Source: Candidatus Hydrogenedentota bacterium
GTDB lineage: Bacteria; Hydrogenedentota; Hydrogenedentia; Hydrogenedentales; CAITNO01
Assembly (NCBI GenBank): GCA_012730105.1
Contig: JAAYBJ010000107.1
Location: forward strand, 1 to 35,073
DNA length: 35,073 nt
Direction: 5' to 3'
A program made the translations under genes and the position numbers. Shown piece after piece: positions 3,717 to 34,779 of the stretch; positions within the stretch are counted from its first letter, which is position 1, and every line of letters begins with the position of its first letter. Below the pieces are notes generated by a model that was given only the letters and a program-made list of their open reading frames with translations, was not told where the DNA came from and searched no databases.

Positions 3717-4154
3717 ATGTTCTGGTCAATAAAGAAATCAAGAGCACTACGAAGAGTATCAACAAAACTGGCTGGAAAACCTGATATGGGACTTTCCTTC
3801 ATGAATGCGCTGAATGAGGGTGGTTTTGATGCTATAGATAAACTCTTAAAACAGCAGGATATTTATAGGAGAGAACTGTATGAGATTGTACATAAGGACC
3901 CCAATACACAAAAAGTCCTTCAAGGATACAACATTTCTGATAAGGAACTCGATGATCTTTATAGTTCCCTTATAAGAGAAGGTGCAGGAGTTTATCGCAA
4001 AGGACATTGGGTTGCTGCATCGACGCTTGTATTCGCTTTTACTTTTGAATACGCAATCACACAAAAGAGAAATGGTGATGATTGTTTCAGCCGTGCATGT
4101 AAACGATTGATAGAATATTTTGATAGAAATGAAACGGGACCTTTACATAACTAG
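3717..4154 (+). CDS. Hypothetical protein, AT-rich orphan
   Basis: A 145-residue protein of no recognised family. The ATG at 3717 has a good site (AGGGGAG) about 8 bases upstream. The chain is soluble and mostly helical: a basic start (WSIKKSRALRRVSTKL), a central DAIDKLLKQQDIYRRELYEIV segment, then KGHWVAASTLVFAFTFEYAITQKRNGDDCFSRACKRLIEYF. The last part could be a helical-repeat or HEPN-like bundle, but no catalytic motif stands out. Its base composition is lower in GC than the regulator genes upstream, and two further AT-rich orphans follow on the same strand, so it probably belongs to an acquired patch. Confidence 0.65.
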   Translation: MFWSIKKSRALRRVSTKLAGKPDMGLSFMNALNEGGFDAIDKLLKQQDIYRRELYEIVHKDPNTQKVLQGYNISDKELDDLYSSLIREGAGVYRKGHWVAASTLVFAFTFEYAITQKRNGDDCFSRACKRLIEYFDRNETGPLHN

Positions 4155-4252
4155 ATTATGTAAAGACTCGGGGCAACAATTTTATTTTTATGATGGTTAA
4201 AACCCTTGATATCTCGAGATCCTAAGAACTTTGTAATTAAACAGGGAAGACG

Positions 4253-5158
4253 ATGAACACAATACGATCTATTCTGATAATGTTTCTGGCCTGCTCTTTC
4301 GGTCTTATGGTGATAGCTATTGTGATGGTTATCATGGGCTTGGCGGGGGCGCCTGGCGCATTGATATTTGAGGCAGGAAAGAAAACTAAAAATGTTCTTC
4401 TTTCTGTTTTGGGCTTTGTGCTTTCAGCACTCGGACAATCATATGTCGTTGGTGCGTATGCAGTGTTCGTTGTTAGCCTTCTAAGATGGTTCTCAGAAGC
4501 GAGACCAAACATACCAACGTGGCCTCTTTGGATCGCCGCTTTCTTTCATAGCTTAGCTGCTCCTGAATATGCTAAACGGGAGAGGGCAAAAGAACCTACT
4601 GCGCAACATTATTCTCTTGGCATTGTTGTGTTACTGTCTATCGTGTTCTTTTTTATCATGGTGTTTGCGCCGAATACGCTCAACCCTATTTATGGGTGGG
4701 TTCCTTTTTACCAATCCACGATCCATCCTAATACTACTTCAAATATGACTAAGAATGGCTCAGATGATCTGTATTCTTACTCGCTCACACAAAGTCAAAG
4801 AGAATCAGTGGATGGTTTTTTCACAGCATATCAATACCTTCAAGATATGCATGTACTAATTCAAGCGATGTCAAATTCACAGGATCCCGTAGAGGATTTG
4901 AAGGGCTTGGAAGCATTGATTGAAAAATCTCTTGATCGTTTGGCTGAATGTGAAGTCTTGGTACTGAATGATATCCAACCTGGCTGGGGAGATGTTGTTA
5001 GAGATAAATTTATGCCTGCCTTGACAAAGATGAAGTCTGGCATACAAAACAATGGCAATAAAGTGGATTTTGCTAAGGCAGATGCCCTATTAGCCTCATT
5101 TGATTCTTGGTTACAGGCGAATTGGAATGAGATTGGACAAAAAGTTGGAGAAAAATAA
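4253..5158 (+). CDS. Membrane protein of unknown function
   Basis: A 301-residue protein with ATG at 4253 preceded by AGGGA. The N-terminal half is strongly hydrophobic. Helices are visible at about residues 7-32 (ILIMFLACSFGLMVIAIVMVIMG), 48-80 (VLLSVLGFVLSALGQSYVVGAYAVFVVSLL), 90-105 and 122-140 (LGIVVLLSIVFFFIMVF). The C-terminal 150 residues are soluble and helical, without cysteine-rich or catalytic signatures, and include DPVEDLKGLEALIEKSLDRLAECE. No family was recognised. The topology of several helices followed by one soluble domain could suit a sensor or effector, but this is inference. It sits between two other orphan genes on the same strand, with spacers of about 100 and 190 bases. 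Confidence 0.7.
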   Translation: MNTIRSILIMFLACSFGLMVIAIVMVIMGLAGAPGALIFEAGKKTKNVLLSVLGFVLSALGQSYVVGAYAVFVVSLLRWFSEARPNIPTWPLWIAAFFHSLAAPEYAKRERAKEPTAQHYSLGIVVLLSIVFFFIMVFAPNTLNPIYGWVPFYQSTIHPNTTSNMTKNGSDDLYSYSLTQSQRESVDGFFTAYQYLQDMHVLIQAMSNSQDPVEDLKGLEALIEKSLDRLAECEVLVLNDIQPGWGDVVRDKFMPALTKMKSGIQNNGNKVDFAKADALLASFDSWLQANWNEIGQKVGEK

Positions 5159-5345
5159 AACTGTGCAACGGGCGGTCATGCTTTTTTCATCAAGACAAAT
5201 TCCATCGCATATAGAACTTTATATACAACAAGCAATTGTTTATGAATAGACAGGCGACCAATAACAGTCGCCGTTTAGCTTAGTAAGTATTTCAAGAATA
5301 GAATGTAAACAAACCTATTTAAATCAGGCCTTTAGGTGATGGACC

Positions 5346-6143
5346 ATGAGCGACGAAGACACTACAACTATCTATACAATAAACCGCACTCTGTTTGAGA
5401 GGGTTTCCAGTTGTGCGTGTACGTTGTCAGCCAACACATCAGGGCGCATGGTAGATAGCAGAAGGAAACAGATAGCATCGGTTATCTTTGGAAAGATTGC
5501 CCTTCATGCTTATACGATGCTCCAAATAGCACCTTCAAATTCACACGACGTTCATGGTTATCCCTTTGCGTTTCCAGATTATGCCTCTGTATTTGTATTG
5601 GCGCGGGCTGTCATGGAAGGCTATTGCACGCTGTATTACACGGCCATAGATGATATCAGCGAAGATGAGCGGAACTTCCGTATCCTGCTTGGTGATTATC
5701 ACGCAAAGAAAAAGCGTGTTGATTTGCTTAAAGCACTTGGACGCACTCCTGCCGAACTTCCAGAATTAGAGGCGGATGCTGACGCGCTAAGAACTGCTTT
5801 GCAGCAAACTGACACAACTGGAATCTGGGATGGAAAGAAACTGTTTCTTCTTTCAAATACGGATATTTGTGCAAAAGCGGGTATTGCACAAAGAAACTAC
5901 AAGCCCCTCTATGACTACCTTTCAAGTTATACGCACGGGTATCCTATATCGATTGAACAGATTTTGGACATATCGAGTATTAACCATGTCCTTAACCTAT
6001 TGATTCCCTTTTTGGATGTCTGTTCCGGATACGTGTGTTTTGCCATCCGAGATTTCATTAGACTATTTCCTGATCAGAATGTATTTGTTGATACGATTAT
6101 CCAACGGACGATTATCAGATTTGAAGAGAATTTTCGGTCCTGA
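5346..6143 (+). CDS. DUF5677-like / HEPN-like helical protein
   Basis: A 265-residue protein with ATG at 5346 and only a weak upstream site (GGTGA). Two blocks resemble the DUF5677 group of all-helical proteins. One is DYASVFVLARAVMEGYCTLYY around residues 78-98. The other is YKPLYDYLSSYTHGYP around 187-202, where a conserved Ser/His pair sits in a helix. Those proteins are found scattered in mobile regions and their activity is not settled; some all-helical relatives are HEPN RNases, but the RxxxxH signature of that group is not evident here. The coding sequence is moderately AT-rich, like its two upstream neighbours. It ends 86 bases before the convergent HzsA-like gene. Confidence 0.6.
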   Translation: MSDEDTTTIYTINRTLFERVSSCACTLSANTSGRMVDSRRKQIASVIFGKIALHAYTMLQIAPSNSHDVHGYPFAFPDYASVFVLARAVMEGYCTLYYTAIDDISEDERNFRILLGDYHAKKKRVDLLKALGRTPAELPELEADADALRTALQQTDTTGIWDGKKLFLLSNTDICAKAGIAQRNYKPLYDYLSSYTHGYPISIEQILDISSINHVLNLLIPFLDVCSGYVCFAIRDFIRLFPDQNVFVDTIIQRTIIRFEENFRS

Positions 6144-10764: not shown

Positions 10765-10992
10765 AAATGGTTTTGTCAGGAACTGTAGCTCCGTTGCCCG
10801 CTATGGGAAAAAATGATTCCGGTCTGGTTGCATGCCGGGTAGAGCGGTACTCAACACTTCAAACATTTATGTCACAGGCGCGCAAGATAGGAGTATTTTT
10901 GCCAGAGCCATGAAATGATCCAAGCGGAACCCGCCTTTGCGTCTGAAAAGTTTCAAGAGCGGACATAGAGTCGCTTGAATGACCGCGTACCT

Positions 10993-11021
10993 TTGTGTTT
11001 CCTGCGTTTTTAGGCTACAAT
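10993..11021 (+). promoter_or_regulatory. Candidate sigma-70 promoter of the oxidoreductase-aroB group
   Basis: TTGTGT (10993-10998), a 17-base spacer and TACAAT (11016-11021) resemble a sigma-70 promoter. The first gene starts about 200 bases downstream, which would give a long leader. Confidence 0.4.
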
Positions 11022-11230
11022 TATCAGCCAGTGAAGAAACTATTGGCAGGCAGACCCCCCGGGCTCCTGAGTCTGTGAATACTTTTCCGGGTCTGCGGTC
11101 CGGTACTTCCCGTACAGGCTGCGGCAGGCGGTTTTGTCTTTCCTGCCTGCGGGAGCACCATAAATCGCAAGCCGTGTGCTCGCGGGGTTGTCTGTTTGCT
11201 AAACAACAAAAGCGATATCGAAAGGTGACT

Positions 11231-12265
11231 ATGAGCAGGAAAGTACGAATCGGCATTATCGGTTGCGGCGCGATCGCGGAGAGGCTTCATGTTCCCGAGT
11301 ATGCGGCCAGTCCCGACGCTGAACTTGTGGCGTTTTGCGATGCATTGAAAGGCAGGGCACAGGCGGTTGCGTCAACGTTCGCGCCGGACGCGCAGATATT
11401 CACCGATTATAAGGATCTCTTGAAGAAAGCGGATGTGGAAGGCGTTTCCGTGTGCCTTCCCAATCATCTGCACGGACCGGTAACCATTGCGGCGCTGAAG
11501 GTGGGCTGCAATGTGCTGGTGGAGAAACCCATGGCCACAAGCGTGGCCGAGGCACGTCGTATGCTGGACGCGGCGGACAAGGCGGGCAAACTCCTGGCCG
11601 TTAATCAGAGCCAGCGGTTGTTCCCGGCGCACGTCAAGGCCAAAGAAGTCATGGACAGCGGTATCATGGGCAAGGTGTTGCATGTGACGGCCATGTTCGG
11701 CCATGCAGGTCCCGAGTACTGGAGTCCGTCCGGAAAATGGTTCTTCAATAAAAAAGAGGCGCGCTTTGGGGCCATGGCTGACTTGGGCGTACATAAGGCC
11801 GATTTGGTGCGTTATCTCACGGGTAAGGAAGTAGGCTCCATCGGCGCCTTTTATGAACGCCTCGAAAAGAAACGGGCCAGCGTGGAAGATAATTTCGTCG
11901 CAGCGCTGAAATTCACTGACGGCACTGTAGGGACGCTGGCAGCCTCCTGGACCGTCAAAGGTGCGGAGGCGAATTACACCATTTTATACTGCACCAACGG
12001 TACCCTCAGCGTTTGCGCTTATCCGGGACGGCCGCTGGTGGCCAACCTGGTGAATCCTGAATGTGAAATCGACTTTGATGTGCCGCCTCCCCCGGATAAT
12101 GACAACGGCGGCTGGGGCCTGGATATCGGCGGCCGGTTCTGCCGCGCCATCAAGGGAGAGGAAGCGCCTTATTGCAGCGGTTTCGAGGGGATGAAATCCC
12201 TGGAAGTCATCCTCGCGGCGGAGCGGTCCGCCCTTACCGGCCGCACGATTAAAATCAACCATTAG
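11231..12265 (+). CDS. Gfo/Idh/MocA-family oxidoreductase
   Basis: A 344-residue NAD(P)-dependent oxidoreductase of the glucose-fructose oxidoreductase / inositol dehydrogenase family. ATG 11231 is chosen because the Rossmann fold begins directly after it (VRIGIIGCGAIAERLH, a GxGxxA-type nucleotide-binding loop) and AAAGGTG lies just upstream. VEKPMATS carries the family's EKP catalytic lysine. MADLGVHKADLVRYLTG holds the conserved Asp and His of the active site. The C-terminal domain has the usual open beta sheet. Substrates in this family are sugars, polyols and their derivatives; the exact one cannot be told. AroB follows after 20 bases, so they are probably co-transcribed, although the families are not known to act in one pathway. 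Confidence 0.92.
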   Translation: MSRKVRIGIIGCGAIAERLHVPEYAASPDAELVAFCDALKGRAQAVASTFAPDAQIFTDYKDLLKKADVEGVSVCLPNHLHGPVTIAALKVGCNVLVEKPMATSVAEARRMLDAADKAGKLLAVNQSQRLFPAHVKAKEVMDSGIMGKVLHVTAMFGHAGPEYWSPSGKWFFNKKEARFGAMADLGVHKADLVRYLTGKEVGSIGAFYERLEKKRASVEDNFVAALKFTDGTVGTLAASWTVKGAEANYTILYCTNGTLSVCAYPGRPLVANLVNPECEIDFDVPPPPDNDNGGWGLDIGGRFCRAIKGEEAPYCSGFEGMKSLEVILAAERSALTGRTIKINH

Positions 12266-12285: not shown

Positions 12286-13380
12286 ATGACCCAGACGGTG
12301 ACCGTGCCCCTCGGCGATCGCGCGTATGACATCCATATCGGACGCCGGAACCTGCATTTCGTGAAGGAATGGTTGCAACTTCGGGGGCCGCGCGGAGCCG
12401 CAGGCCTGATTACGGACAGCAATGTGGGACCGCTGTATGCCGACCGGGTGCGTGCCCAAATCGAGGAAGCCGGATGGCGGTGTGTCGTTCACACGATGCC
12501 TGCGGGAGAGGCCAACAAACGTCTTGACCGCATAGAAGAGATTTGCGGGGCCATGCTCGAAGGCGGCTTGGACCGGGGCAGCGTTATGGTCGCTCTGGGA
12601 GGCGGTGTCGTCGGCGATGTGGCGGGTTTCGCCGCCGCCTGCTTCATGCGCGGCATACCCTGTTTACAAGTGCCTACCACCGTGGTTGCGCAGGTGGATT
12701 CCAGTGTCGGAGGCAAAACGGCGGTCAATCATCCCCTCGGGAAAAACACCATCGGCATGTTTCACCAGCCCGTCGCGGTTGTTATCGACATGGAATTGCT
12801 GGAATCCCTGCCCGTGCGCGAAGTGCGCGCCGGCTGCGCGGAAATCATCAAGCACGGTGTGATTGCCGATGCCGCCCTGTTTGCCTACATGGAAGCAAAC
12901 GCGCGGAACATCCTGGACGGGGATTTGGACGCGCTTGTGTACCCGATCGCCCGGTCCTGTGAGATCAAGGCTGCCGTGGTCACGCAGGATGAGCATGAGC
13001 TGGGGCTCCGCGCGAACCTGAATTACGGGCATACCTTCGGGCATGCCATTGAAACAGTGAGTCAGTACAGCCTTTTTCTGCATGGGGAGGCCGTTTCCCT
13101 GGGCATGTGCGCCGCGGGAGCGCTGGGCGGCAACCTCGGGCTGGTTGACCGGGAATTCATGGAACGCCAGCGTTCCTGCCTGGCCGCATACGGACTGCCC
13201 GTCCGCTGGCCGGAACTGCCTGTTTCCGACGCGCTTGCCGCGATGAAAAAGGACAAGAAGGCCCGGTCCGGGAAGTTGAAATTTATTGTTCCGGAGCGTA
13301 TGGGTGCTGTTATGCAGAGAACCGATATTACGGAAGAGCAGGCGCGGGCGGCGCTAGCTTCGCTGAAGAAGGAAGACTGA
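12286..13380 (+). CDS. aroB: 3-dehydroquinate synthase
   Basis: The second enzyme of the shikimate pathway, closing DAHP to 3-dehydroquinate in the cytoplasm with NAD and a divalent metal. The 364 residues match the family length. GGGVVGDVAGFAAACFMRG is the NAD-binding signature. VPTTVVAQVDSSVGGKTAVN and GKNTIGMFHQP are the substrate loops. GCAEIIKHG gives the metal-binding Glu, and NYGHTFGHAIE gives the two metal-binding His. The ATG at 12286 follows GGAG and lies 20 bases after the oxidoreductase stop. Transcription probably continues into the TPR gene 23 bases downstream. Neighbouring aro genes such as aroK are absent, so the pathway is dispersed in this genome. Confidence 0.97.
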   Translation: MTQTVTVPLGDRAYDIHIGRRNLHFVKEWLQLRGPRGAAGLITDSNVGPLYADRVRAQIEEAGWRCVVHTMPAGEANKRLDRIEEICGAMLEGGLDRGSVMVALGGGVVGDVAGFAAACFMRGIPCLQVPTTVVAQVDSSVGGKTAVNHPLGKNTIGMFHQPVAVVIDMELLESLPVREVRAGCAEIIKHGVIADAALFAYMEANARNILDGDLDALVYPIARSCEIKAAVVTQDEHELGLRANLNYGHTFGHAIETVSQYSLFLHGEAVSLGMCAAGALGGNLGLVDREFMERQRSCLAAYGLPVRWPELPVSDALAAMKKDKKARSGKLKFIVPERMGAVMQRTDITEEQARAALASLKKED

Positions 13381-15749: not shown

Positions 15750-17240
15750 ATGAATATCGGACTTATCGGCTGTGGTCGTATTGCCGATCTTCATGCGCTT
15801 GCCTATCAAGGCCAGGATACGGCGCGTCTGTACGCGGTTTGCGACTCCGATGCGGAAAAGGCCGAGTTACGCAAACGGGAATGGCACGCTGAAAAGGCCT
15901 ACACCGATTACCGTGATCTACTGGCCGATCCTGATATTTCGGCGGTTGAAATCCTGAGTCCCTATGACACCCATGAGGAAATTGCCATTGCGGCGGCCCG
16001 GGCGGGAAAGCACATCGCCTGCCAGAAGCCCATGACCACTTCTCTCGCAAGCGCCGGGCGCATCCGTGAGGCGGTGCGCGCCGCCGGAGTGCATTTTCAA
16101 CTGACGGAGATCTATGTTCATTACCCGCCCATTGCGCTCGCCCGAAAACTGATTGATGCCGGCGCCATTGGCGAACCGGTCGGCATGCGTGCGGACTTCA
16201 TTTCCAGCCCGCTGGGAGGCTGGCCGGTGCCGCCCTCCACCTATGCGCAGCAGACGCGCCTGGCCGGGCGGGGATTCGGGCTGTCCACTTTCGACCATGG
16301 CCACCATGAATGGGCGACCGCCTGGTATCTGCTTGGCGATGTGGAACGTGTGTCCGCCTGGATCGACACCAATGACGGCATGCTGGACGTGCCCGCCACC
16401 ATTATGTGGAAGGGCAAAGGTAACAAGCGGTACGGGGTGTGCAATTTTCTTTTCGCGTCCGACCTGCCCGTTCCCACCCGCTATTATTCCAATGATGAAC
16501 TGTATCGCATTGTAGGCACGAAGGGCGTTATTCATATCAACCGCGGCACGGGCGAGATGAATGAGGGCCCGCCTGTCAGCGTGTTCGACGGCAGTACATG
16601 GACACACTACGAAGAGGTGCCCTCCGACTGGGCGTTGGGATTCGTCAATGCGGGCCGCCACTTTTTCAAGGTTCTTGCCGGGGAAGCCTCCCCCCTGCTT
16701 TCGCTGGATCAGGGCGCCGAGGTGCTCCGCTTCGCCCTGGCGATCATGGAATCCGCCCGCAGGCGCCGTGAAGTATACCTGGACGAAGTGGAGCGTCCCT
16801 TTGCGTTTCTCTCCAATCTGCGCCGGCGGTTGCGGGAACGAAAATCCTGCGTTGTTGCGCCTCGAGGACAGAAAACAGGCTGGTTTCCAAGGAACACCAC
16901 CCAGTATGCGTTACAAGCCGAAGCATTGACGGACGCCCTGCTGGACCGGTTTGACGGTTCGGCTGTTCCTGAATGGAAGGCGGTCATCGCCCTCGAACTC
17001 CTGGATGGCGCAGGCCAGTCCGCGCATTGCTACAGTTTTCATTTTGACAGGGGCGAACTGCGTGTGGAGAAAGGGGTGTTGGCCACGGATGCCGTTCTGA
17101 CGGTACACATGGAGGCCGGACTTTGGGCCGCTATTCTATTGAAGAAAAAGCGCATTGAGATGGCGGTCATCCAGGGAAAACTCAAGTTTGAAGGCCGGGG
17201 CGAAGAAGCCCTGTACTTGAAGAAGGCATTCAGGTTTTAG
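15750..17240 (+). CDS. Gfo/Idh/MocA oxidoreductase fused to an SCP2-like domain
   Basis: A 496-residue protein, longer than the usual 330-400. ATG 15750 is chosen because the Rossmann fold starts there ([20 protein letters not shown]) and AAGGAG lies 11 bases upstream. Residues 1-350 are a Gfo/Idh/MocA oxidoreductase. The catalytic lysine motif is QKPM instead of the common EKP, and [20 protein letters not shown] carries the active-site Asp/His region. Residues of about 380-496 resemble the SCP2 sterol/lipid-binding fold: a long helix ([14 protein letters not shown]), strands [21 protein letters not shown] and [10 protein letters not shown], and the hallmark ending [24 protein letters not shown]. 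It should be cytoplasmic and may act on a lipid-linked or hydrophobic substrate. mnmG follows 53 bases later. Confidence 0.8.
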
Positions 17241-17293: not shown

Positions 17294-19177
17294 ATGAAAA
17301 CGTTTGAAGTGATCATCATAGGCGGCGGACATGCCGGCATCGAGGCGGCGCTTGCATGCGCCCGCACCGGACATCTGTCGTTGCTGATCAGCATGAACCT
17401 GGATGATATTGGGCGTATGTCCTGCAACCCGTCCATTGGCGGGGTGGCCAAGGGGCAGCTTACCCGGGAAATTGACGCCTTGGGTGGTGAGATGGGACGT
17501 TGTATCGACCGCACCGGCATCCAGTTCAAAATGCTCAATCGCAGCAAAGGGGCGGCCGTACATTCCCCGCGCGCCCAGGCGGACCGTTTCCTGTATCAGC
17601 AGTACATGAAACAGGTGTGTGAGTCCACAACCAATCTATATCTTAAACAGGCGGAAGTCACCGATCTGCTTGTGGAAGATAACCGTATTGCGGGCATTCG
17701 CACTTCCTTCGGAGAGGAGATCAGCGCGGCGGCCGTTATCGTCTGCACGGGCACTTTCCTGCACGGCAGACTGCATTTTGGTATGACAACGATTTCAGGG
17801 GGGCGCGGCGGATCCGCCGCCGCCGACGGGCTGAGCGACTGCTACCGTCGGCTGGGCTTTCCTGTGGGGCGGCTGAAAACGGGCACCTGCGCGCGGATTC
17901 ATGAACGAAGCATTCATTTTGAGAAGTTTCAGGAACAGCCCGGTGACGCCCTGCCCCGGCCTTTTTCTTTCTCCACTCCCGTGGAGGGCTTTGATCGGAA
18001 CCTGGTCTCCTGTTGGTTGACGCATACCACGGAAAAAACGAGGGATATAATCCTCGCCAACATGGACCGCAGCCCGCTGTATTCCGGCCGTATTGAAGGC
18101 ATCGGCACCCGCTATTGCCCAAGCATTGAAGATAAGATCGTGAAATTTCCTGATAAGCCCCGCCATCATTTGTTCCTGGAACCCGAGGGTTTGAACACGG
18201 CCGAGTGGTATGTGAATGGGTTATCCACCAGTTTGCCTGAAGACGTTCAGCGCGATATGCTGCACAGTTGTCCGGGCCTTGAAGATGCGGAAATTATCCG
18301 GCCGGGCTACGCCGTGGAATATGATTATGTCCCCCCCACCCAATTGAAACTGACACTGGAAACCAAAGCAATCGGCGGCTTATATCACGCGGGACAAATC
18401 AACGGCACTTCGGGGTATGAAGAGGCTGCGGCACAGGGTTTGTATGCCGCGCTGAATGCGGTACGTTTCCTCGAGGGAAAACCGCCCCTGATTATTGGCC
18501 GGGAGGAAGCCTACCTGGGGGTTATGGTGGACGATATCGTCACACGCGGAGTGCTGGAACCGTACCGGCTTTTTACGTCAAGGGCCGAGTACAGGCTCCA
18601 TCTGCGTCATGACAACGCGGATGTACGCCTTGCCGCGTACGGCATACGAAATGAAGCCCTGCTGCAACGCGTCGAAAAACGCGAACGGGATGTGGAGGCA
18701 GAAATTGTCCGTTTGCGGGATGTTTTCTTCTCCCCGGGCACGGAGTTAAACCAGTTCTTGACCGCCTGCGGCGAAGTTCCGGCCATGACACCCTTGTCCG
18801 CGGAACAAATTCTGAAACGGCCCGGCATGACCCTGGAAAATCTGTGGGAACTGACGCCGCCCGAGGCGCTTTTAGATTTCGAGGCGCGCGAACAGGTGGA
18901 GATTCGGATAAAATACGGAGGCTATCTCGACCGGGAAGCCAAAACCATTGAGCGTTTTGAGAAGGCGGAGAAATTGCGCATTCCGGATACCTTTGACTAC
19001 GACTGCATTCCCGGATTGCCCCGGGAGAGCCGCCAGCGTTTAAAAGAAATACAGCCCCTGACTTTCGGCCAGGCGGCGCGCGTGCCGGGCGTGCGATCGA
19101 GCGACATCGCCGTGCTGCACATTTACCTGATGAAGATGCAGAAATCCAGGCAGGGCGCAGTAAACGCCGATGAATAG
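17294..19177 (+). CDS. mnmG: tRNA uridine-5-carboxymethylaminomethyl(34) synthesis enzyme MnmG
   Basis: The FAD-binding partner of MnmE, which together modify U34 in the anticodon of several tRNAs. From ATG 17294 it has 627 residues, the family norm; the frame opens earlier but the FAD loop [21 protein letters not shown] begins a few residues after this Met. The signatures are intact: [23 protein letters not shown], the [11 protein letters not shown] strand, LKTGTCARI with the conserved Cys, and [21 protein letters not shown]. The C-terminal helical domain is also complete ([19 protein letters not shown]). The upstream ribosome-binding site is weak (GGAAATGG). Neither mnmE nor rsmG, frequent neighbours elsewhere, is beside it. 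Confidence 0.97.
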
Positions 19178-19294: not shown

Positions 19295-21295
19295 TTGCTA
19301 TCCCGTCAGATGAAAAGAAAGTTAACCCGCCGTGGTTTTCTGCGCACGGCAGTGCTGGGAACGGCTGCCACCGGAGCTTTATTTCACATCGGCAAATCGC
19401 ACGCGCAGGCGCAGGGCAGAGTCATTATGCTCGGATATGATGGCATGGAGCCTTCAATCGTGGAGGAAATGCTGGAGCGAGGTGAACTGCCTAACCTGGG
19501 CAAGTTGCGGGAAACGGGCGCCTATCGCCGGCTCGGTTCAACGATTCCGCCCCAATCGCCGGTCGCCTGGAATACTTATGCCACCTGCAAAAACCCGGGA
19601 GGCCATAATATCTTTGACTTCATCCGTCGGGATCCGAAAAGCCCGGGTGGCCCCATGCCGCTGGTGGGCACGGGGAAACTGGTTCCTCCTGTGATCGGTA
19701 CGGATGGCGGCCTTCAGGAACCGGCAAAAGGTATTAATTATCGAACAGGTATTCCGTTTTGGTCCGTTGCCGATGAGCAGGGAAAACGGGGAAAAATCTT
19801 GAACATTCCCTTCGCATTTCCGCCTGATCCACTGAAAAACGGGATGATGATAAGTGCGCTGGGCGTTCCCGACCTGCGGGGTACGACAAGCACCTATTTT
19901 TCTTTGTCGGACAGTTTTACACAGGAGGAACTTTCTGAAGACCTGGGCGGCGGTCGGCGCATCGCATTGGCTTTTGACGGCAGTGATGAAGCGCTTTTCC
20001 CGGTTCCCGGGCCCCGGGACAACCGCTACCGGTTCAGTGATCCGAATGCCTACACGAGTACGCCCTTGCGTTTTAAGATCAACCGTGGCGATAAACGTGG
20101 CAAGATCAGTGATGGTGACAGTGAGGTGGACATTGAACAGGGCGCCTGGTCGGAATGGCTGGAACTTCGTTTTGAGATGTCCCCCAAGGTGGAGGTGCAC
20201 GGCATTACGCGCTTTTTCCCGATGGAAATCGGCGAACGGGTGCGCATCTACATGGCCTGTGTGCAATACCACCCGGACGCGCCTTATAGCGCCCTGACTT
20301 CCCCAGAGCCCTATAGCGCGGAGTTAAAAGGACGTTTTGGACTGTACAAAACGATTGGCTGGGCTTATGACACCCATGCACTGCGCCAGAACGACCTGGA
20401 GGAAGAGGCCTTCCTGAAGGACATAGACGATACCATGTCCTTCCGCGACCGGTTGACTCTTGACGAATTGAAACGAGGCGAGTTCGATTTCCTGCTGAGC
20501 GCCTGGACTGCAACAGATCGCGCGGGGCACATGTTCTGGCGTTACCGGGATGAAGGGCACCCCTATTACACCCCTGAGGCACCGGAACATTGGAAAAAAG
20601 CCCTTGAGTATACGTACAAGCGTGCGGACGCCCAGACGGGGGCGGTCCTGGAACAACTGCGTGAAGAGGATACCCTGTTCGTGTTTTCCGACCACGGTTT
20701 CGGCTCGTGGCGGCAGGGGTTCAATCTGAACACCTGGCTTCGTGATAACGGCTATCTCTCTGTAAAAGACCCGAAGCAGGCCGACCGGGGATTTCTTATG
20801 GGCATCGACTGGAATGAGACCAAGGCGTATTCGGTGGGGTTAAGTTCCCTTTACTTGAATATCAAAGGCCGGGAAACAGGCGGCGTGGTGGAACCGGATG
20901 CCGCGGAGGCGCTGATCGCTGAATTAAAAGACAAACTTGCCGGTGTAAAAGACCCGAAAACGGGCGCGAACGTTTTTTCATCGCTATATCCCCGCGGGGT
21001 ATACTCGGGAGAGGCCATGGGCGACGCCCCGGATATTTCCCTGGGGTACGCCCCCTACTATCAGAACAGCCGCCAGACCTCCCGGGGCGGCGTAGGCGCG
21101 CCGCTCCTGGAACCCGTTATGGACAAGTGGAGTGGTGAGCATGCCGCAAGTGATTGTAAGAACTGTCCCGGTGTCTTTTTTTCCAACAAGCCCCTGGATA
21201 AAGAAGATCCCCGTATCCAGGATCTCGGGATGACGACATTGTCACTACTGGGTGTGGACGCACCCTCGGATTATGAAGGGGATGTTATCTTATAA
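19295..21295 (+). CDS. Tat-exported alkaline phosphatase-family phosphoesterase
   Basis: A 666-residue protein of the type I phosphodiesterase / nucleotide pyrophosphatase branch of the alkaline phosphatase superfamily. TTG 19295 is taken as start since AAGGAG ends 7 bases before it; an ATG 15 bases later is the alternative. The signal has the twin-arginine motif TRRGFLRTA and then a hydrophobic stretch ending at SHAQAQG, so it is folded before export. Metal-site residues include D49 (LGYDGMEPS), the likely nucleophile S88 in IPPQSPVAWNTY, and later TATDRAGHMFW and FSDHGFGSW. GGHNIFDFIRRDP is typical of this branch. The substrate is unknown, with phosphodiesters or phosphoglycans being possible. 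It lies upstream of a mannosidase gene on the same strand. Confidence 0.88.
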   Translation: MLSRQMKRKLTRRGFLRTAVLGTAATGALFHIGKSHAQAQGRVIMLGYDGMEPSIVEEMLERGELPNLGKLRETGAYRRLGSTIPPQSPVAWNTYATCKNPGGHNIFDFIRRDPKSPGGPMPLVGTGKLVPPVIGTDGGLQEPAKGINYRTGIPFWSVADEQGKRGKILNIPFAFPPDPLKNGMMISALGVPDLRGTTSTYFSLSDSFTQEELSEDLGGGRRIALAFDGSDEALFPVPGPRDNRYRFSDPNAYTSTPLRFKINRGDKRGKISDGDSEVDIEQGAWSEWLELRFEMSPKVEVHGITRFFPMEIGERVRIYMACVQYHPDAPYSALTSPEPYSAELKGRFGLYKTIGWAYDTHALRQNDLEEEAFLKDIDDTMSFRDRLTLDELKRGEFDFLLSAWTATDRAGHMFWRYRDEGHPYYTPEAPEHWKKALEYTYKRADAQTGAVLEQLREEDTLFVFSDHGFGSWRQGFNLNTWLRDNGYLSVKDPKQADRGFLMGIDWNETKAYSVGLSSLYLNIKGRETGGVVEPDAAEALIAELKDKLAGVKDPKTGANVFSSLYPRGVYSGEAMGDAPDISLGYAPYYQNSRQTSRGGVGAPLLEPVMDKWSGEHAASDCKNCPGVFFSNKPLDKEDPRIQDLGMTTLSLLGVDAPSDYEGDVIL

Positions 21296-21519: not shown

Positions 21520-24168
21520 ATGAAGGCTTATTACTGCGTGGGCACCCATTGGGACCGGGAATGGTATGAACCGTTCCAGGAATTCCGCATGTGGCTGGTG
21601 GAATTGATAGACGAGGTTATGGACCTGATGGAGCGCGACCCGGAATACAAATGTTTCCACTTGGACGGCCAGACGATTGTTATTGAGGATTATCTGGAAA
21701 TCCGTCCTGAACAACGTGACAGACTGTTGCGCCATCTCAGGGAACGGCGCCTGCTGATCGGCCCCTGGTATAACCTGCCTGATGAATGGCTTGTTTCAGG
21801 GGAAAGCCTCATCCGCAATCTGATGCGGGGATACCGCGCTTGCAGGGAACTGGAGGTCGCTCCCCTGGATTTCGCCTATACGCCCGACCAATTCGGGCAT
21901 ATCGCCGCACTGCCCATGATCATGAATGGGTTCGGCCTCAAAACAGGGATTGTCTGGCGGGGCACACAGGATGAAAGCCACCCTGCCCAGTTCGTTTGGG
22001 AGGGACCTGACGGCAGCCGTTTGGTGTATTACAAATTGATGGATAAGGGCAGTTATGGCCCCTTTGATTTCTTGGCGCGCCGTCCCATCAAGGAGGCTGG
22101 CTACAGCGAGGAGAGTTTCAAGAAACATTTCGAGCCTTATTTTAAGGAAGAGTCATCGCGCGGTGCGGCACCCGTCGTGTTGCTGCTTGACGCCATAGAC
22201 CATCAGCGGCCCGATCCTGAAATGCCGGGACTTCTGGAACGTTTACGTCAACGGTATCCTGATATTGAGTTCCAATGGACGTCACTGGAGGAGTATGGCC
22301 GGGAATTGCTTCAATACAGCGATCAATACCCGTTACGCAAGGGTGAACTGCGCGAGCCCGCACGTGACGGGAAACGTGTCGGCCAATACCTGATTGTCCA
22401 CACCATTTCTTCCCGCGCCGACATTAAAAGACGGAATGATGCCTGCACTGCATTGCTGGAAAGATGGTGCGAACCTTATACGCTGTTCGCGCTCATGGAC
22501 GACCCCTTCCCCACGCTGCCCTATCTGGATAAGGCCTGGGAATATCTTCTGAAGAACCATCCCCATGATTCCATCTGCGGATGCAGCATTGATCAGGTGC
22601 ACCGCGATATGCACTACCGTTTTGACCAGGCGGAGATGATTGGAGAAGGACTGCTCCGACGGGCGCTGGCCCGAACAGGCAACGCTTCTTCGGACGTTGA
22701 ATATTGGCGTCATGTCGTCGCCCATAATCCCCTGCCGCAACCGCGAACGGGGGTGTTTAATGCTACCTTGTATTTTCCGACGGATTATGGGAAAACAACC
22801 GGCCACACCTATCATGACGGACTGGCGACCGGCGAAGAGTACAACAAGTTTCACCTGGTGGACAACGACGGGAAACGGCTCGCCTACCAGCATCGCGGGA
22901 TTGAACGCGGGATTGAATGCCGGCGTCTCGACGCGTCCGGGCGCGAAACCATTACGATCGGCGATTTGTACCACGTTGCCGTGGAAATGGACCTGCCGGC
23001 GTGCGGGATTTCCGGTTTCTCCATTGAAGGCACCGATGACGCTACACGAACCTTCGGCAGCCTGCTTACCGGTCCCATGTCCGCTTCCAACGGGAGTCTC
23101 TCCCTTTCCGTGGGTAATGACGGTGGCGTAACGCTCGCCCGGGAAAACGGACCTTGCTTTGAAGGTCTTTTTTTGTATGAGGATGCCGGTGACTGCGGCG
23201 ACGGCTGGACCCGTGGCATACCGGTGCATGACACTGTCTTTCGCTCCTTTGGCAGCACCGTTACTACAGGAATAGAAGAAAACGGCCCCCTGCGCGTAAC
23301 CTTCCGCATTGAACGGCAACTTTTACTGCCACGAGGTCTGGATCCCCGGTCAAAGACACGAAGCGATGACAGGGTTTCGGTCGCTATAACGGATTTCATT
23401 TCCTTGGAGAAACACGGTGACGCGGTGAAAGTCCGAACGGTCATAAACAATACCGCAGAAGACCACCGGCTTCGCGTGCTATTTCCCACCTGTTTGGAAA
23501 CAGACCAGTCTTTCGCGGATACGCCTTTTGCCATTGTCGAAAGAGAGATTGCCATTCCGGAATCAACGGCGTTGTGGCAGGAACGTGTAAACGAGGAAAA
23601 GGCCTTCAGCTCTTTTTGCGGGGTTGCCGACGCATCGGGCGGCCTGGCCGTGGTAAGTCAGGGCGGTCTGCATGAATATGCCGTGTTACAGACGACTCAA
23701 CGGGAACTGGCCCTGACCCTGTTCCGGTCCTTCCGTAAAACTGTGGGCAAGCCGGAAGAAAAGGATGGACAGCTCTTGGGACAACTGTCTTTCGAGTATT
23801 CCCTTGTTCCATTTTCCGGCCAGCCCAAGCCGGTGGAACTGCTGCGTCTGGCGGCCAGGCTTCAGGCCCCCCCACGTTTTCATACTGCAGAGGCGCTGCC
23901 ACCGCCGGTTTCCCGGCTGTCGCTGGAACATGGGAATGCGGTGGTAACCGCCTTGAAGCCGGCAGCGAATAGGCAAGGCGGCATCATACGGTTCTGGAAT
24001 CCCACTGGCGAAGATGTTGTCGAAGGATTTAAGACGTCGTGCCCCTTGACTTCCGTTTGTTACTGCAACCTCAATGAGGAACCCGGGGAAACCGTTCAGT
24101 TTCGGGGCGAATATGTCCCGGTGCGTATTGCCGCGGGCGGGATCAGCACCATCCGCTTCAACTGGTAA
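21520..24168 (+). CDS. Alpha-mannosidase, glycoside hydrolase family 38
   Basis: An 882-residue enzyme with no signal peptide, so probably cytoplasmic. The ATG at 21520 follows AAGGA. The N-terminal catalytic domain holds the zinc ligands H10 and D12 (GTHWDREWYEP), the nucleophile D123 in YTPDQFGH, and the third zinc ligand region around H347-D350 in NHPHDSICGCSIDQVH. IGPWYNLPDEWLVSGESLIRN is also typical. The middle helical and C-terminal beta-sandwich domains of GH38 follow from about residue 400. Length and architecture resemble E. coli MngB, which cleaves 2-O-mannosylglycerate after uptake, but no PTS gene is present, so the substrate is open. It ends 3 bases before the stop codon of the convergent exoribonuclease gene. 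Confidence 0.93.
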   Translation: MKAYYCVGTHWDREWYEPFQEFRMWLVELIDEVMDLMERDPEYKCFHLDGQTIVIEDYLEIRPEQRDRLLRHLRERRLLIGPWYNLPDEWLVSGESLIRNLMRGYRACRELEVAPLDFAYTPDQFGHIAALPMIMNGFGLKTGIVWRGTQDESHPAQFVWEGPDGSRLVYYKLMDKGSYGPFDFLARRPIKEAGYSEESFKKHFEPYFKEESSRGAAPVVLLLDAIDHQRPDPEMPGLLERLRQRYPDIEFQWTSLEEYGRELLQYSDQYPLRKGELREPARDGKRVGQYLIVHTISSRADIKRRNDACTALLERWCEPYTLFALMDDPFPTLPYLDKAWEYLLKNHPHDSICGCSIDQVHRDMHYRFDQAEMIGEGLLRRALARTGNASSDVEYWRHVVAHNPLPQPRTGVFNATLYFPTDYGKTTGHTYHDGLATGEEYNKFHLVDNDGKRLAYQHRGIERGIECRRLDASGRETITIGDLYHVAVEMDLPACGISGFSIEGTDDATRTFGSLLTGPMSASNGSLSLSVGNDGGVTLARENGPCFEGLFLYEDAGDCGDGWTRGIPVHDTVFRSFGSTVTTGIEENGPLRVTFRIERQLLLPRGLDPRSKTRSDDRVSVAITDFISLEKHGDAVKVRTVINNTAEDHRLRVLFPTCLETDQSFADTPFAIVEREIAIPESTALWQERVNEEKAFSSFCGVADASGGLAVVSQGGLHEYAVLQTTQRELALTLFRSFRKTVGKPEEKDGQLLGQLSFEYSLVPFSGQPKPVELLRLAARLQAPPRFHTAEALPPPVSRLSLEHGNAVVTALKPAANRQGGIIRFWNPTGEDVVEGFKTSCPLTSVCYCNLNEEPGETVQFRGEYVPVRIAAGGISTIRFNW

Positions 24169-27183: not shown

Positions 27184-28489
27184 TTGGCCATAATATGCAA
27201 ACGGCCCTTATTTTACAGTCCTTTAAGACCAAAATGCGATTTATCGATTTGAAACTGTCAAGTAAAATCCGTGGACTATTCCCAACAACGTGGAGGATAG
27301 TCAACGATGAATCCAGGCGCAACTATATTTTCTCAACTGATGGAGTTCGTGCCCAGGTACGAGTTTCGCAAGTGTATAAACCGTTATCAAGGGCACTACA
27401 AAGTCAAGCGCTTTTCCTGCTGGGAACAATTTCTCAGCATGGCGTTTGCCCAAGTGACTTACAGGGAAAGTCTTCGAGACATCGAATCCTGCCTTCGGGC
27501 CGCACCGGAAAAACTATACCATATGGGTTTCAGAGGCAAGGTTGCACGCAACACACTGGCCAATGCCAATTCGGCTCGGGATTGGCGTATTTATGCGGAC
27601 TTTGCCAAAGTACTGATCGACATTGCACGTCCTTTGTACGTGGGCGAAGACTTAGGATTCGAACTCGAAAAAGCGGTTTACGCGCTCGACTCGACAACGA
27701 TAGACCTTTGTCTGGCTGTCTATCCATGGGCACAATTCCGCAAACACAAAGGTGCCATCAAACTTCACACATTGCTGGATGTCCGTGCGCGTATTCCCAC
27801 GATTATTGTTATCACAACAGGCAAAGTACACGATGTCAACATCCTCGACAAACTGTGGTTCGAGCCCGGGGCTTTTTATGTCATGGATCGTGGCTACGTG
27901 GATTTCGAGCGTCTGTATCGCATACAGCAAGCGTCCGCTTTCTTCGTAACACGAGCCAAGAAAAATTCTACGTTCCGCCGACTATATTCAAATGTAGTGG
28001 ACAAGAGCGAAGGCATACAGTGCGACCAGACCGTGATGCTGACAGGTTTCTATGCTCGCCAGAATTATCCAGAAAAACTGCGTCGTATCCGGTATCTCGA
28101 TCCGGATACGAACAAAAGACTTGTTTTCTTAACCAACAACCATGAGCTGCCGGCTATTGTCATTGCAAAATTATATAGAGCACGTTGGAGTGTGGAATTA
28201 TTTTTCAAGTGGATAAAGCAACACCTGCGAATCAAGGCATTCTATGGAACCTCAGAGAACGCTGTGAAAACTCAGATTTGGATTGCGATATCCGTGTATG
28301 TACTTGTTGCCATCGTCAAGAAACGTTTGAATCTGGAGCAAAGCCTCTACAGTATTCTACAGATTTTAAGCGTTACGATGTTCGAGAAAACGCCCATTTT
28401 ACAGGTGCTTTCACGACATGATGATAACGATCTGGATGATGACGCTCCTAAACAGTTGCAATTATTCGAATAACGCTGGGACAGCAGTG
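27166..28489 (+). mobile_element. Complete IS4-family insertion sequence, 1324 bp
   Basis: The element has one transposase gene, terminal inverted repeats of about 18 bp with one mismatch (both ends begin CACTGCTGTCCCA when read inward) and a perfect 9-bp target duplication AATATCTAT (27157-27165 and 28490-28498). Intact ends, intact duplication and an uninterrupted transposase point to a fairly recent insertion. The right end lies in the 3' end of the minus-strand repeat protein gene and removed its stop codon. The name IS4 rests on the transposase motifs; the subgroup was not determined. Confidence 0.93.
27307..28473 (+). CDS. IS4-family DDE transposase
   Basis: A 388-residue transposase, full length for the group, with ATG 27307 preceded by GGAGG 10 bases upstream. 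The N-terminal 75 residues (FSQLMEFVPRYEFRKCINRY and FSCWEQFLSMAFAQVTYRESLRDIE) are the DUF4372-type DNA-binding part. The catalytic triad is D128 (YALDSTTID), D194 (VMDRGYVDF) and E297. The glutamate lies in the IS4 signature Y-2-R-3-E-6-K, here Y290, R293, E297 and K304. The stop codon overlaps the right inverted repeat, as in compact insertion sequences. No frameshift or missing catalytic residue is seen, so the enzyme should be active. Confidence 0.96.
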   Translation: MNPGATIFSQLMEFVPRYEFRKCINRYQGHYKVKRFSCWEQFLSMAFAQVTYRESLRDIESCLRAAPEKLYHMGFRGKVARNTLANANSARDWRIYADFAKVLIDIARPLYVGEDLGFELEKAVYALDSTTIDLCLAVYPWAQFRKHKGAIKLHTLLDVRARIPTIIVITTGKVHDVNILDKLWFEPGAFYVMDRGYVDFERLYRIQQASAFFVTRAKKNSTFRRLYSNVVDKSEGIQCDQTVMLTGFYARQNYPEKLRRIRYLDPDTNKRLVFLTNNHELPAIVIAKLYRARWSVELFFKWIKQHLRIKAFYGTSENAVKTQIWIAISVYVLVAIVKKRLNLEQSLYSILQILSVTMFEKTPILQVLSRHDDNDLDDDAPKQLQLFE

Positions 28490-31880: not shown

Positions 31881-32035
31881 GCCCGTGTGGACTTTCCTGT
31901 CCGGTAATGACGCGTTTTGAATTGAATTCGTGGGTAATTGCGAATCGTGTCTCCTGAATTCGGGATTTTTTTATTAGAGAAAGGAAAACATCATCGACTA
32001 CTACATCTCGATGTAATTTACCCAATATCCGGCCT
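31881..32035. other. Short intergenic stretch with a weak hairpin
   Basis: A CATCGA/TCGATG hairpin (31992-32013) followed by a pyrimidine-rich run on the minus strand may be a weak terminator for the upstream orphan gene. AGGAAAG occurs 13 bases before the repeat protein start. Confidence 0.35.
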
Positions 32036-32923
32036 CTATTCTGGAACGGGAGGATGTTTATAAACATAGGGTTCACTTTCCCGTTTCTGTACCAGAGGAT
32101 GGGTACTCTGTTTAAGAAATGCATCTACCTCAGGGGTACGGAGATCATGAACGATATTGACTATTTCCGCAATAAATAAATCTATGTAAGCATAATTTGA
32201 AGAAATTAGATTATTTAATATCATTTTTTCGCCATCTAGATTATCGTTTTTCCACCCCTCCGGATTCTTATTCCAATGTAGTGTTACATGCGTAGAAATA
32301 GACTGCTTTATTTCCTCTATATCTTGCGACGATAGGGTGTTGTTTAGTGATATTAATGCTCTTCCAGGAGATAGGGAAAACATAAGATCTAAAAGAGATA
32401 ACGAAAGTACGCTACTCGTATCTATCTCTTCATCAAGAAGTGCGTTGTGCGGTGTGAAATCAAAATCCCATATTCGATCTCGCATTTTATCTTCTTTGTT
32501 ACTACTTGAAAGGACAAACAAATAAGATAAATATTCTTTTTTTAGTTTGCCATTGGATTGATACCAAACGGGTGTTAATAACTTTAGTATTTCATGCTTT
32601 GATATACCTGCTTGGTTAAAGGAAATCAATCCCTGCGTCATTTGAAATTCCCATTTTGTTCCTACTTTTTCGGTTTTAAGTTGTGCAAAATTTTCCAGAA
32701 CTTTTACAAATAAGGCCTGCCCAGAAACTTCTAAACATATTTCTAGTTCTGAAAGCAGAATAGGTGATGCTGTCTCCCAAGAATCTCCCATAGAAAAACC
32801 TTCAATCAATCCAGCTTCAGATCGTTGGGCAACATCTTGAAAGCAATCACCATATAATTTATTTTGAAAAGATATTGTTAATAGTGATAAAATTATACAT
32901 ATATCTTTTATATTATTTGACAT
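32036..32923 (-). CDS. Secreted or membrane-anchored orphan protein, AT-rich
   Basis: A 295-residue protein of no recognised family. ATG 32923 follows AGGAGAG. The N-terminus (IKDICIILSLLTISFQNKLYG) looks like a signal peptide or uncleaved anchor, although it is short on positive charge. The remainder is soluble and helical, with acidic stretches and segments such as LSLSLLDLMFSLSPGRALISLNNTL and YAYIDLFIAEIVNIVHDLRTP. The end is Pro-rich (KHPPVPE). A 60-base sample at 32521-32580 has only about 27% GC, far below the repeat gene downstream. It follows the lipase-like gene after 32 bases on the same strand and may be co-transcribed with it. Confidence 0.65.
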   Translation of the reverse strand: MSNNIKDICIILSLLTISFQNKLYGDCFQDVAQRSEAGLIEGFSMGDSWETASPILLSELEICLEVSGQALFVKVLENFAQLKTEKVGTKWEFQMTQGLISFNQAGISKHEILKLLTPVWYQSNGKLKKEYLSYLFVLSSSNKEDKMRDRIWDFDFTPHNALLDEEIDTSSVLSLSLLDLMFSLSPGRALISLNNTLSSQDIEEIKQSISTHVTLHWNKNPEGWKNDNLDGEKMILNNLISSNYAYIDLFIAEIVNIVHDLRTPEVDAFLKQSTHPLVQKRESEPYVYKHPPVPE

Positions 32924-32955
32924 CCAGATACTCTCCTATTGTTATAAGCATAACA

Positions 32956-34779
32956 TTAATTTATGCAATTGTGGATATTATCATCCCCAAAAGAATATAG
33001 TGGCAGACACACAAAACTATATAATATATTGTCTAATATATTTTTATAAATATCGTGCACAATTACGCAATCATCTATGTCTTGATGCGTTTGACCAAAT
33101 ACACGTGGTAACAAGTTAATATTAAAATTTGGGCTTGTTACCGTTCCATTTTCATCTATTGTTGTTGCCCCATTAAGTGGTATAGGGAATATAGTAATTT
33201 CTTGATATAAATTCCCGTGACGTAAGCTACTTGGGGGATATTTCCTTTCAGCTGAGATAGGTAGTAAACTCATGTCTTCGCTTATTGCATCTATGTAGCC
33301 TGTAAAACAAATATCTAAAGAGCGAACTCCTGGTTTATTGTGATCATAAGCAGAATCCGCATATTCGAAAAGGTTACATAAATTATAGATGGATCCTCCT
33401 CCATGACTATGCCCGATAAGCATTACAGATTTAGCCTTTAAACCACGTAACCTTAAAACGATTTCTTCATATAACCACCCCGAACCGTCTGGATTTACAA
33501 CATCTTCATTATAAAAATCTACCGTGTAACACGGTTCAAGCATAGGACGCAAGACAACGTTCAAGCCACTTCCTGAACAATCTACAAATTGTCCTGAAAA
33601 TTCACATTCTCCCGAAAGCAAAATAACCCACGGTCGTAAAAAGACGGCCTTTACGTTAAAAATGGGTTCATCCCTCGGGACATGACGTCCCGGGTGTGCC
33701 GGATCATCCCACCAGTTCATCCATATATCCAAGTCGCCTTCCAAGGGCAGACCGTTACTATTTCTTACCGCTTCCCATCCGGTATCCCGCAATATTTCCC
33801 AATGACTGAATTCCCATCCGGGGTGGGGCGATGCGGAAAGGGTAACTTTATTGGCATTTATGTCCGGAGCCGGTTCAAGTGCGTTTATTATGTTAAAGGT
33901 ATTGACATACGGTATGGGGTTATAGGTGTAGGGGAGATAACCCGGTATCATGCCTTCACCTTCGACCAGCACATTAAGCCTGATGCGCTCCGCGAGATGC
34001 AGGGTGAATGTCGTATCCGCGGATAAAGGCCTGATTATGGTCGCTATTTCGGTTGTGCTGGTTACAGAACATATGTCAATGCCCTGTTCACTCCATCCCC
34101 AATATGCGGGAAAGAAGTTCTTACCCACCTCAACTCTTGCAGCGAAGTTCGCCGCAAGGCAGGAGCTCTTCTGAACATGCGCATCAACGGTGCCCGGAGC
34201 CGAATCACTGGTAAAAACCTCCCCAGAGCCCCCTTCCAAAGCAACGGTTCCGGTAAAAGATGGTGGGGGTGGCGGGGACGAACCATCGCGTATATCGGCA
34301 AATCCCGGAATAAATTCAGCGTTATGGCATTTCACCATCACGTGCAGTGGATTTTCATAGAAAGCCCCTCCCGGAAAAGCTCGCCAATGTGTAAACACAA
34401 ATCCTGAATAGGGAACGGCTTTTATCTCCACCACTTTTCTATACGGAACTGTAAACGTTCCTTCAGGGACTGTTTCACCATAGTTCATAAACGGATACGG
34501 TCGATGAACCGAATACGTACGGTAAGGATCCGTATCGACGATAGGCATCACCCAGGTGTTCCCGGAGACATCGAACTCGAGGCAGTTCGTATCCCAATTA
34601 GTATCCATGAAACGTGCGTCAGGGCAGATGTCATCCTGATCATATCCCTCAACGCCTGCAAACCATTCAATAAATCGTTCCCCGGCTACGGGCTCGTAAC
34701 ATACCCGCACCGATTCTCCAGGCAAATAGTGCCATTTGTGACTGTCCCCTGTTATGTCAGAATGGTATCTAATTCTCAA
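32956..34779 (-). pseudogene. InlB-repeat / lipase-like protein, N-terminus apparently frameshifted
   Basis: The frame holds about 608 residues from the TTG at 34779. It runs on to 34986 as a highly Arg/Pro-rich, unlikely N-terminus that overlaps the next gene in another frame. Recognisable are InlB/bacterial-repeat-like units (HYLPGESVRVCYEPVAGERF, AVPYSGFVFTHW, PHPGWEFSHWE, FNVKAVF). Then comes an alpha/beta-hydrolase domain with nucleophile elbow GHSHGG (SVMLIGHSHGGGSIY); downstream Asp (GYIDAIS) and His (QTHQDIDD) could complete the triad. There is no signal peptide and no start codon with a binding site. The preceding frame ends at 34769, where a one-base shift in a T/C run would join PRVHLPFP to LRIRYHSD. 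A frameshifted secreted lipase-like protein is most likely; two separate genes remain possible. Confidence 0.6.

Follow-up and report, generated by a model that had tools for sequence, protein, structure and literature searches.

Enzyme-borne SCP2 domains usually serve substrate binding or transfer, as in MFE-2, SCPx and the alkylsulfatases, and polycyclic lipids are among the ligands that such domains can hold. In HSDL2 and MFE-2 the oxidoreductase part is a short-chain dehydrogenase and not a Gfo/Idh/MocA enzyme, and both proteins are eukaryotic and peroxisomal. With the protein described here, HSDL2 (PMC9863881) and MFE-2/17beta-HSD4 (SCP2 domain 1ikt) share the combination of an NAD(P) oxidoreductase with an SCP2 domain. 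The type III alkylsulfatases SdsA1, Pisa1 and SdsAP are likewise enzymes with a C-terminal SCP2-like domain, but their catalytic part has the metallo-beta-lactamase fold. SdsA1-type alkylsulfatases act on alkyl chains, and the dimer interface of SdsAP is built from all three of its domains, among them the SCP2-like one (PMC5426288).

We analyzed a Gfo/Idh/MocA–SCP2 fusion gene encoded at 15750..17240 on the forward strand of a 35,073-nucleotide stretch of DNA (the window), which is one whole contig (contig 51) of a 98%-complete Candidatus Hydrogenedentota MAG (G000). The top sequence and fold matches of its oxidoreductase part are levoglucosan dehydrogenase (6a3i), TM0414 (3ezy) and scyllo-inositol dehydrogenase (5yap/6ktj). 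The protein resembles these enzymes in having both Gfo/Idh/MocA domains, the Rossmann nucleotide loop and the catalytic Lys, Asp and His, and differs from them in a QKP motif in place of EKP and in an additional linker and SCP2 domain of ~150 residues. Oxidoreductases and other enzymes carrying SCP2 domains are thus already known (MFE-2 and HSDL2, and the alkylsulfatases, respectively); new here is the recurrent MFS_2 neighbor of the Gfo/Idh/MocA–SCP2 fusion. The earlier note on this DNA had considered the architecture probably undescribed, and open-access full-text searches of a limited library found no paper on a Gfo/Idh/MocA–SCP2 protein.

Domains and active site of the fusion protein

The open reading frame starts at the ATG at 15750, which is preceded by AAGGAG, and ends with the stop codon at 17238-17240, giving a protein of 496 amino acids; a longer frame from 15717 merely reflects an in-frame ATG upstream. 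The gene is supported by full-length orthologues, and the coordinates given in the earlier note were exact, with both domains scoring above their Pfam cut-offs. The N-terminal NAD(P)-binding Rossmann domain (15750..16100, residues 1-117), with the nucleotide loop GCGRIA, matches PF01408 with 89 bits (cut-off 24). It is followed by the Gfo/Idh/MocA C-terminal alpha/beta domain (16137..16775, residues 130-342), identified by PF22725 (38.3 bits, cut-off 27, residues 130-261) and PF02894 (31 bits, cut-off 22.9, residues 132-342), and Foldseek gave whole-domain matches of the oxidoreductase part to Gfo/Idh/MocA structures. That the C-terminal part of the protein could be this ordinary C-domain, which the earlier note had named as a refutation of its proposal, does not hold, as the C-domain sits separately at 130-342. 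The SCP2-less paralogues stop at its end.

Between the enzyme and the SCP2 domain lies a basic, aromatic-rich linker (16788..16901, residues 347-384), containing a predicted helix at 352-366. Its net charge is +8 in the window protein and +4 to +10 in homologues, and it is positive and rich in aromatic residues in every homologue aligned. The full-length model is weak at residues 151-183, in part of 203-248 and at 364-381, and gives the tail a confidence of ~80–90 over most of 385-460.

The tail (16902..17237, residues 385-496) is an SCP2 domain. PF02036 matched residues 404-494 with 25 bits when the full sequence was searched and rose to 28.8 bits for the C-terminal 126 amino acids alone (cut-off 21.3), and the fusions of other phyla scored 36–46 bits. 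Using an SCP2 profile (E ≤ 0.01), we found a match in all 10 of the Hydrogenedentota and L018 fusions in alignment A2 and in none of the four SCP2-less paralogues. A search of the PDB with the tail profile retrieved mammalian SCP2 (2c0l, 1qnd and 1c44; E 1.7e-4 to 5e-4) as well as the SCP2 domains of alkylsulfatases, these matches together falling between 1.7e-4 and 0.05. AlphaFold2 folded the tail into five strands plus helices with a pLDDT of 92.9 and a pTM of 0.83, and Foldseek placed SdsA1 first (1.0e-7), with SCP2 proteins of yeast, human and insect (about 1e-6 to 1e-5) and of rabbit also matched. Both the profile search and the structure prediction that the earlier note had proposed as checks thus agree with its assignment. 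The Alkyl_sulf_C family (PF14864, cut-off 27 bits) was not reached, with 18.9 bits for the whole protein and 23.1 bits for the tail alone, and no relative of the tail was found in viral contigs.

The putative active site follows the Gfo/Idh/MocA pattern. Lys93 lies in the QKP motif (16023..16031, residues 92-94), at the position of EKP in alignments to PDB sequences, and Asp182 and His186 are candidate catalytic residues of the TFDHGHH motif (16287..16307, residues 180-186), which has the form DxGxH. All three are unchanged in 19/19 aligned fusions and short forms. They match the K–D–H triad that is known from family members of the inositol dehydrogenase type (PMC5969746), and the catalytic set appears from sequence to be intact. 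The window protein is probably a cytosolic NAD(P)-dependent oxidoreductase. It scores far below the cut-offs of the levoglucosan dehydrogenase equivalog NF052479 (116 vs. 650 bits) and the inositol 2-dehydrogenase equivalog TIGR04380 (106 vs. 355 bits). The replacement of the motif's Glu by Gln, correctly pointed out in the earlier note, is seen in all 19 aligned sequences. As it is invariant in the SCP2-less paralogues too, QKP is a trait of the clade that is not tied to SCP2; its presence in an unrelated Gfo protein (L005) of the window genome likewise led us to reject it as a mark of altered chemistry.

Distribution of fusions and SCP2-less paralogues

We searched some hundreds of genomes by profile and covered 84,980 species with a pattern scan that was biased to close relatives. 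The fusion was found in 12 of 68 Hydrogenedentota genomes, with the G009 copy split over two contigs and the G058 copy truncated by the contig end. It also occurs in two further small phyla, in three of five genomes of one (G195, G331 and G388) and one of two of the other (G322, cut at the contig end), as well as in G418 (group f258) and in a contig of a "Deltaproteobacteria" MAG (L018). Conservation is lower in the SCP2 part, with a mean identity of 50%, than in the Gfo part, with 65%.

Four genomes (G001, G002, G039 and G043) contain an SCP2-less paralogue that is 50–54% identical over the Gfo part and stops directly after it, before the linker, providing a natural control for the contribution of SCP2. 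Maximum-likelihood analysis of the Gfo part placed the short forms (support 99/99) between the fusions of Hydrogenedentota and those of other phyla. The best tree of the aligned sequences needs two changes, either one gain of SCP2 and its loss in the short forms or two gains; a single clade of all fusions was not rejected (AU P value 0.32). In two genomes the SCP2-less paralogue lies behind a different, tandem Gfo/Idh/MocA gene of 336–349 amino acids (L041:7066-9141 and L020:7995-10093), the ends of the two genes overlapping or almost touching.

Most Hydrogenedentota genomes have a stand-alone SCP2 gene of ~115 amino acids, usually one. The copy of the window genome (G000:C342, L071:4913-5281) is near an alpha/beta hydrolase-like gene. 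A second apparent fusion in G035, a frame of 472 amino acids, was rejected as a stand-alone SCP2 gene beside groEL (at L067:4355-5416) with an upstream frame open by chance. Hydrogenedentota have a strongly expanded and poorly characterized set of Gfo/Idh/MocA enzymes, and 63 places in the window genome match the fusion protein at E ≤ 0.001. A fused lipid-binding module and a recurrent transporter neighbor are rare, testable clues to a substrate class.

Neighboring genes and the MFS_2 transporter

In the window, the fusion is flanked by a DUF494 gene and by the tRNA modification gene mnmG, located downstream on the same strand (17294..19177; TIGR00136, 798 bits) and syntenic in L015 and L011. 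We rejected mnmG as a functional partner, because it is downstream of the fusion only in the window's own family (window, L015 and L011), and it is likely unrelated to the fusion in function. Beyond mnmG are a type I phosphodiesterase-like gene with a twin-arginine-type N-terminus (19295-21295) and a GH38 alpha-mannosidase gene (21520-24168), both syntenic in L015. A second Gfo/Idh/MocA gene (10979-12265) directly precedes aroB (12286-13380); the nearest NCBIfam for its product is UDP-GlcNAc 3-dehydrogenase, far under the cut-off (143.5 vs. 450 bits). Judged by eye, the gene at 27307-28473 resembles an IS4-type transposase. The G+C content is 41% at 4001-6000 and 38% at 32001-34000, in comparison with 49–64% elsewhere in the window, and these two stretches are possibly recent acquisitions.

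At other loci, the fusion has a recurrent neighbor. An MFS_2 gene adjoins it in 7 of 14 assessable loci, representing about five independent lineages: downstream in G039, G040, G002 and G054, where the stop and start codons overlap in two cases (ATGA in G039 and GTGA in G040), and immediately upstream on the same strand in G195, G331 and L018. Every partner tested scored above the cut-off of PF13347. No MFS_2 gene is adjacent at the window locus or in G008, G019, G001, G003, G388 and G418, and the one MFS_2 gene that the window genome carries lies elsewhere and gave no match in the PDB at E ≤ 0.1. Assuming roughly ten MFS_2 genes per genome, we estimate the probability of a chance adjacency at well under 1% per lineage. 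Within the phylum, 7 of the 12 genomes with a fusion and 2 of the 56 others encode a relative of the partner transporter with at least 44% identity (P value 2.5e-5, Fisher's exact test), a threshold picked after seeing the data and a test treating genomes as independent; at E ≤ 1e-40 the P value is 0.0015.

MFS_2 proteins transport glycosides and phospholipids (PMC8329300), and among proteins of known structure the partners are related to MelB and to MFSD2A, a lysophosphatidylcholine symporter. Similarity to MelB is detectable among the partners and similarity to MFSD2A in three of them. MFSD2A is the better match for L075 (1.3e-18 vs. 2.8e-5) and L018 (2.6e-16 vs. 6.6e-11), the two are about equal for the L040 partner, and the L038 and L013 partners match MelB but not MFSD2A. 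The identity among partners of different phyla is just 21–36%, and judging by these sequences the pairing of fusion and transporter may involve different substrates. The positions of MelB Asp55 and Asp59 hold Glu and Asn in three Hydrogenedentota partners (L038:7209-8498, L012:9482-10768 and L040:10746-12347) and Glu and Cys in a fourth (L013:9495-10760); the L075 and L074 partners retain both Asp. Because these cation-site residues are replaced, and a D59C mutant of MelB is reported to lose cation coupling and still translocate sugar (PMC8329300), the Hydrogenedentota partners may be uncoupled.

Near the G003 fusion lie two genes with relatives in G002, one ceramidase-like (PF04734, 40 bits) and the other a BNR gene, which pointed to glycosphingolipids as a candidate lead. 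We discarded this lead, as that neighborhood is uninformative: PF04734 has 9–18 matches in every genome tested, including G046, which lacks the fusion.

Interpretations of the SCP2 module

The reading that we favor, with a probability of about 0.42, is that the SCP2 pocket holds an amphipathic glycoside or polyol that the Gfo domain oxidizes or reduces. According to this reading, a Gfo/Idh/MocA oxidoreductase would have gained an SCP2 lipid-binding module in cis, and its substrate would be amphipathic, a hydrophobic tail bearing a head that resembles a sugar, glycoside or polyol. That tail would sit in the SCP2 pocket, the basic linker would lie close to the membrane, and the Gfo domain would act on a hydroxyl or keto group of the head; the MFS_2 protein, in many of the bacteria concerned, would move the substrate or the product across the membrane. 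The proposed role of the SCP2 domain is like the one thought for that of the alkylsulfatases. The recurrence of a neighbor from a glycoside- and lysolipid-type transporter family gives indirect support to an amphipathic substrate and to the lipid-linked sugar suggested in the earlier note, with which the data are compatible. The best fold match of the tail, to an SdsA1-type alkylsulfatase, the complete Gfo part with its invariant Lys, Asp and His, and the basic, aromatic linker are also in favor of this reading. Against it count the loci without an adjacent transporter, the window's included, the divergence of the partners, and the lower conservation of the SCP2 part, which would fit a structural accessory too.

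A structural or dimerization module without a lipid role, attached to an otherwise ordinary sugar or inositol-type dehydrogenase of a small soluble substrate, is somewhat unlikely, yet it would explain several of the observations. Besides the difference in conservation, the SCP2-less paralogues form a conserved clade and keep all catalytic residues, and the Gfo part can thus work without SCP2; a structural role also has a precedent in SdsAP, where the SCP2-like domain shares in the dimer interface (PMC5426288). Against it, the SCP2 module has been retained in separate phyla, and the transporter family of the recurrent neighbor includes lipid carriers. Gfo enzymes, moreover, dimerize or tetramerize via their own C-domain.

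The amphipathic-substrate reading can be taken further. The fusion could be the first member of the Gfo/Idh/MocA superfamily to be specialized for an amphipathic or lipid-linked glycoside, with the in-cis SCP2 presenting the substrate and a paired, MFSD2A-like MFS_2 protein importing or exporting it, the two genes forming a small portable system in several uncultured phyla. We consider this extended version doubtful.

The chances are slimmer still that SCP2 works as a sensor with a regulatory role or tethers the enzyme to the membrane, such that a fatty acyl or isoprenoid ligand controls or localizes a dehydrogenase of free sugar or polyol. The basic, aromatic linker with its predicted helix and the low confidence at 364-381 are what one would expect of a flexible tether, but the usual work of SCP2 domains in enzymes is the binding or transfer of substrates.

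A further suggestion of the earlier note, a hopanoid glycoside, is very improbable. The capacity of SCP2 domains for polycyclic lipids and a cyclase family match in G054, G195 and G331 would fit such a substrate, but SQHop_cyclase_N has no match in 12 of the 15 fusion genomes tested, including the 98%-complete genome of the window. Finally, the modest 25 bits of the window protein and the chance frame around the stand-alone SCP2 gene of G035 might suggest a false Pfam hit or a misassembled separate SCP2 gene, an explanation that is refuted, with a virtually negligible residual probability, by the full-length orthologues that other phyla and independently assembled genomes contain and by the independent fold match.
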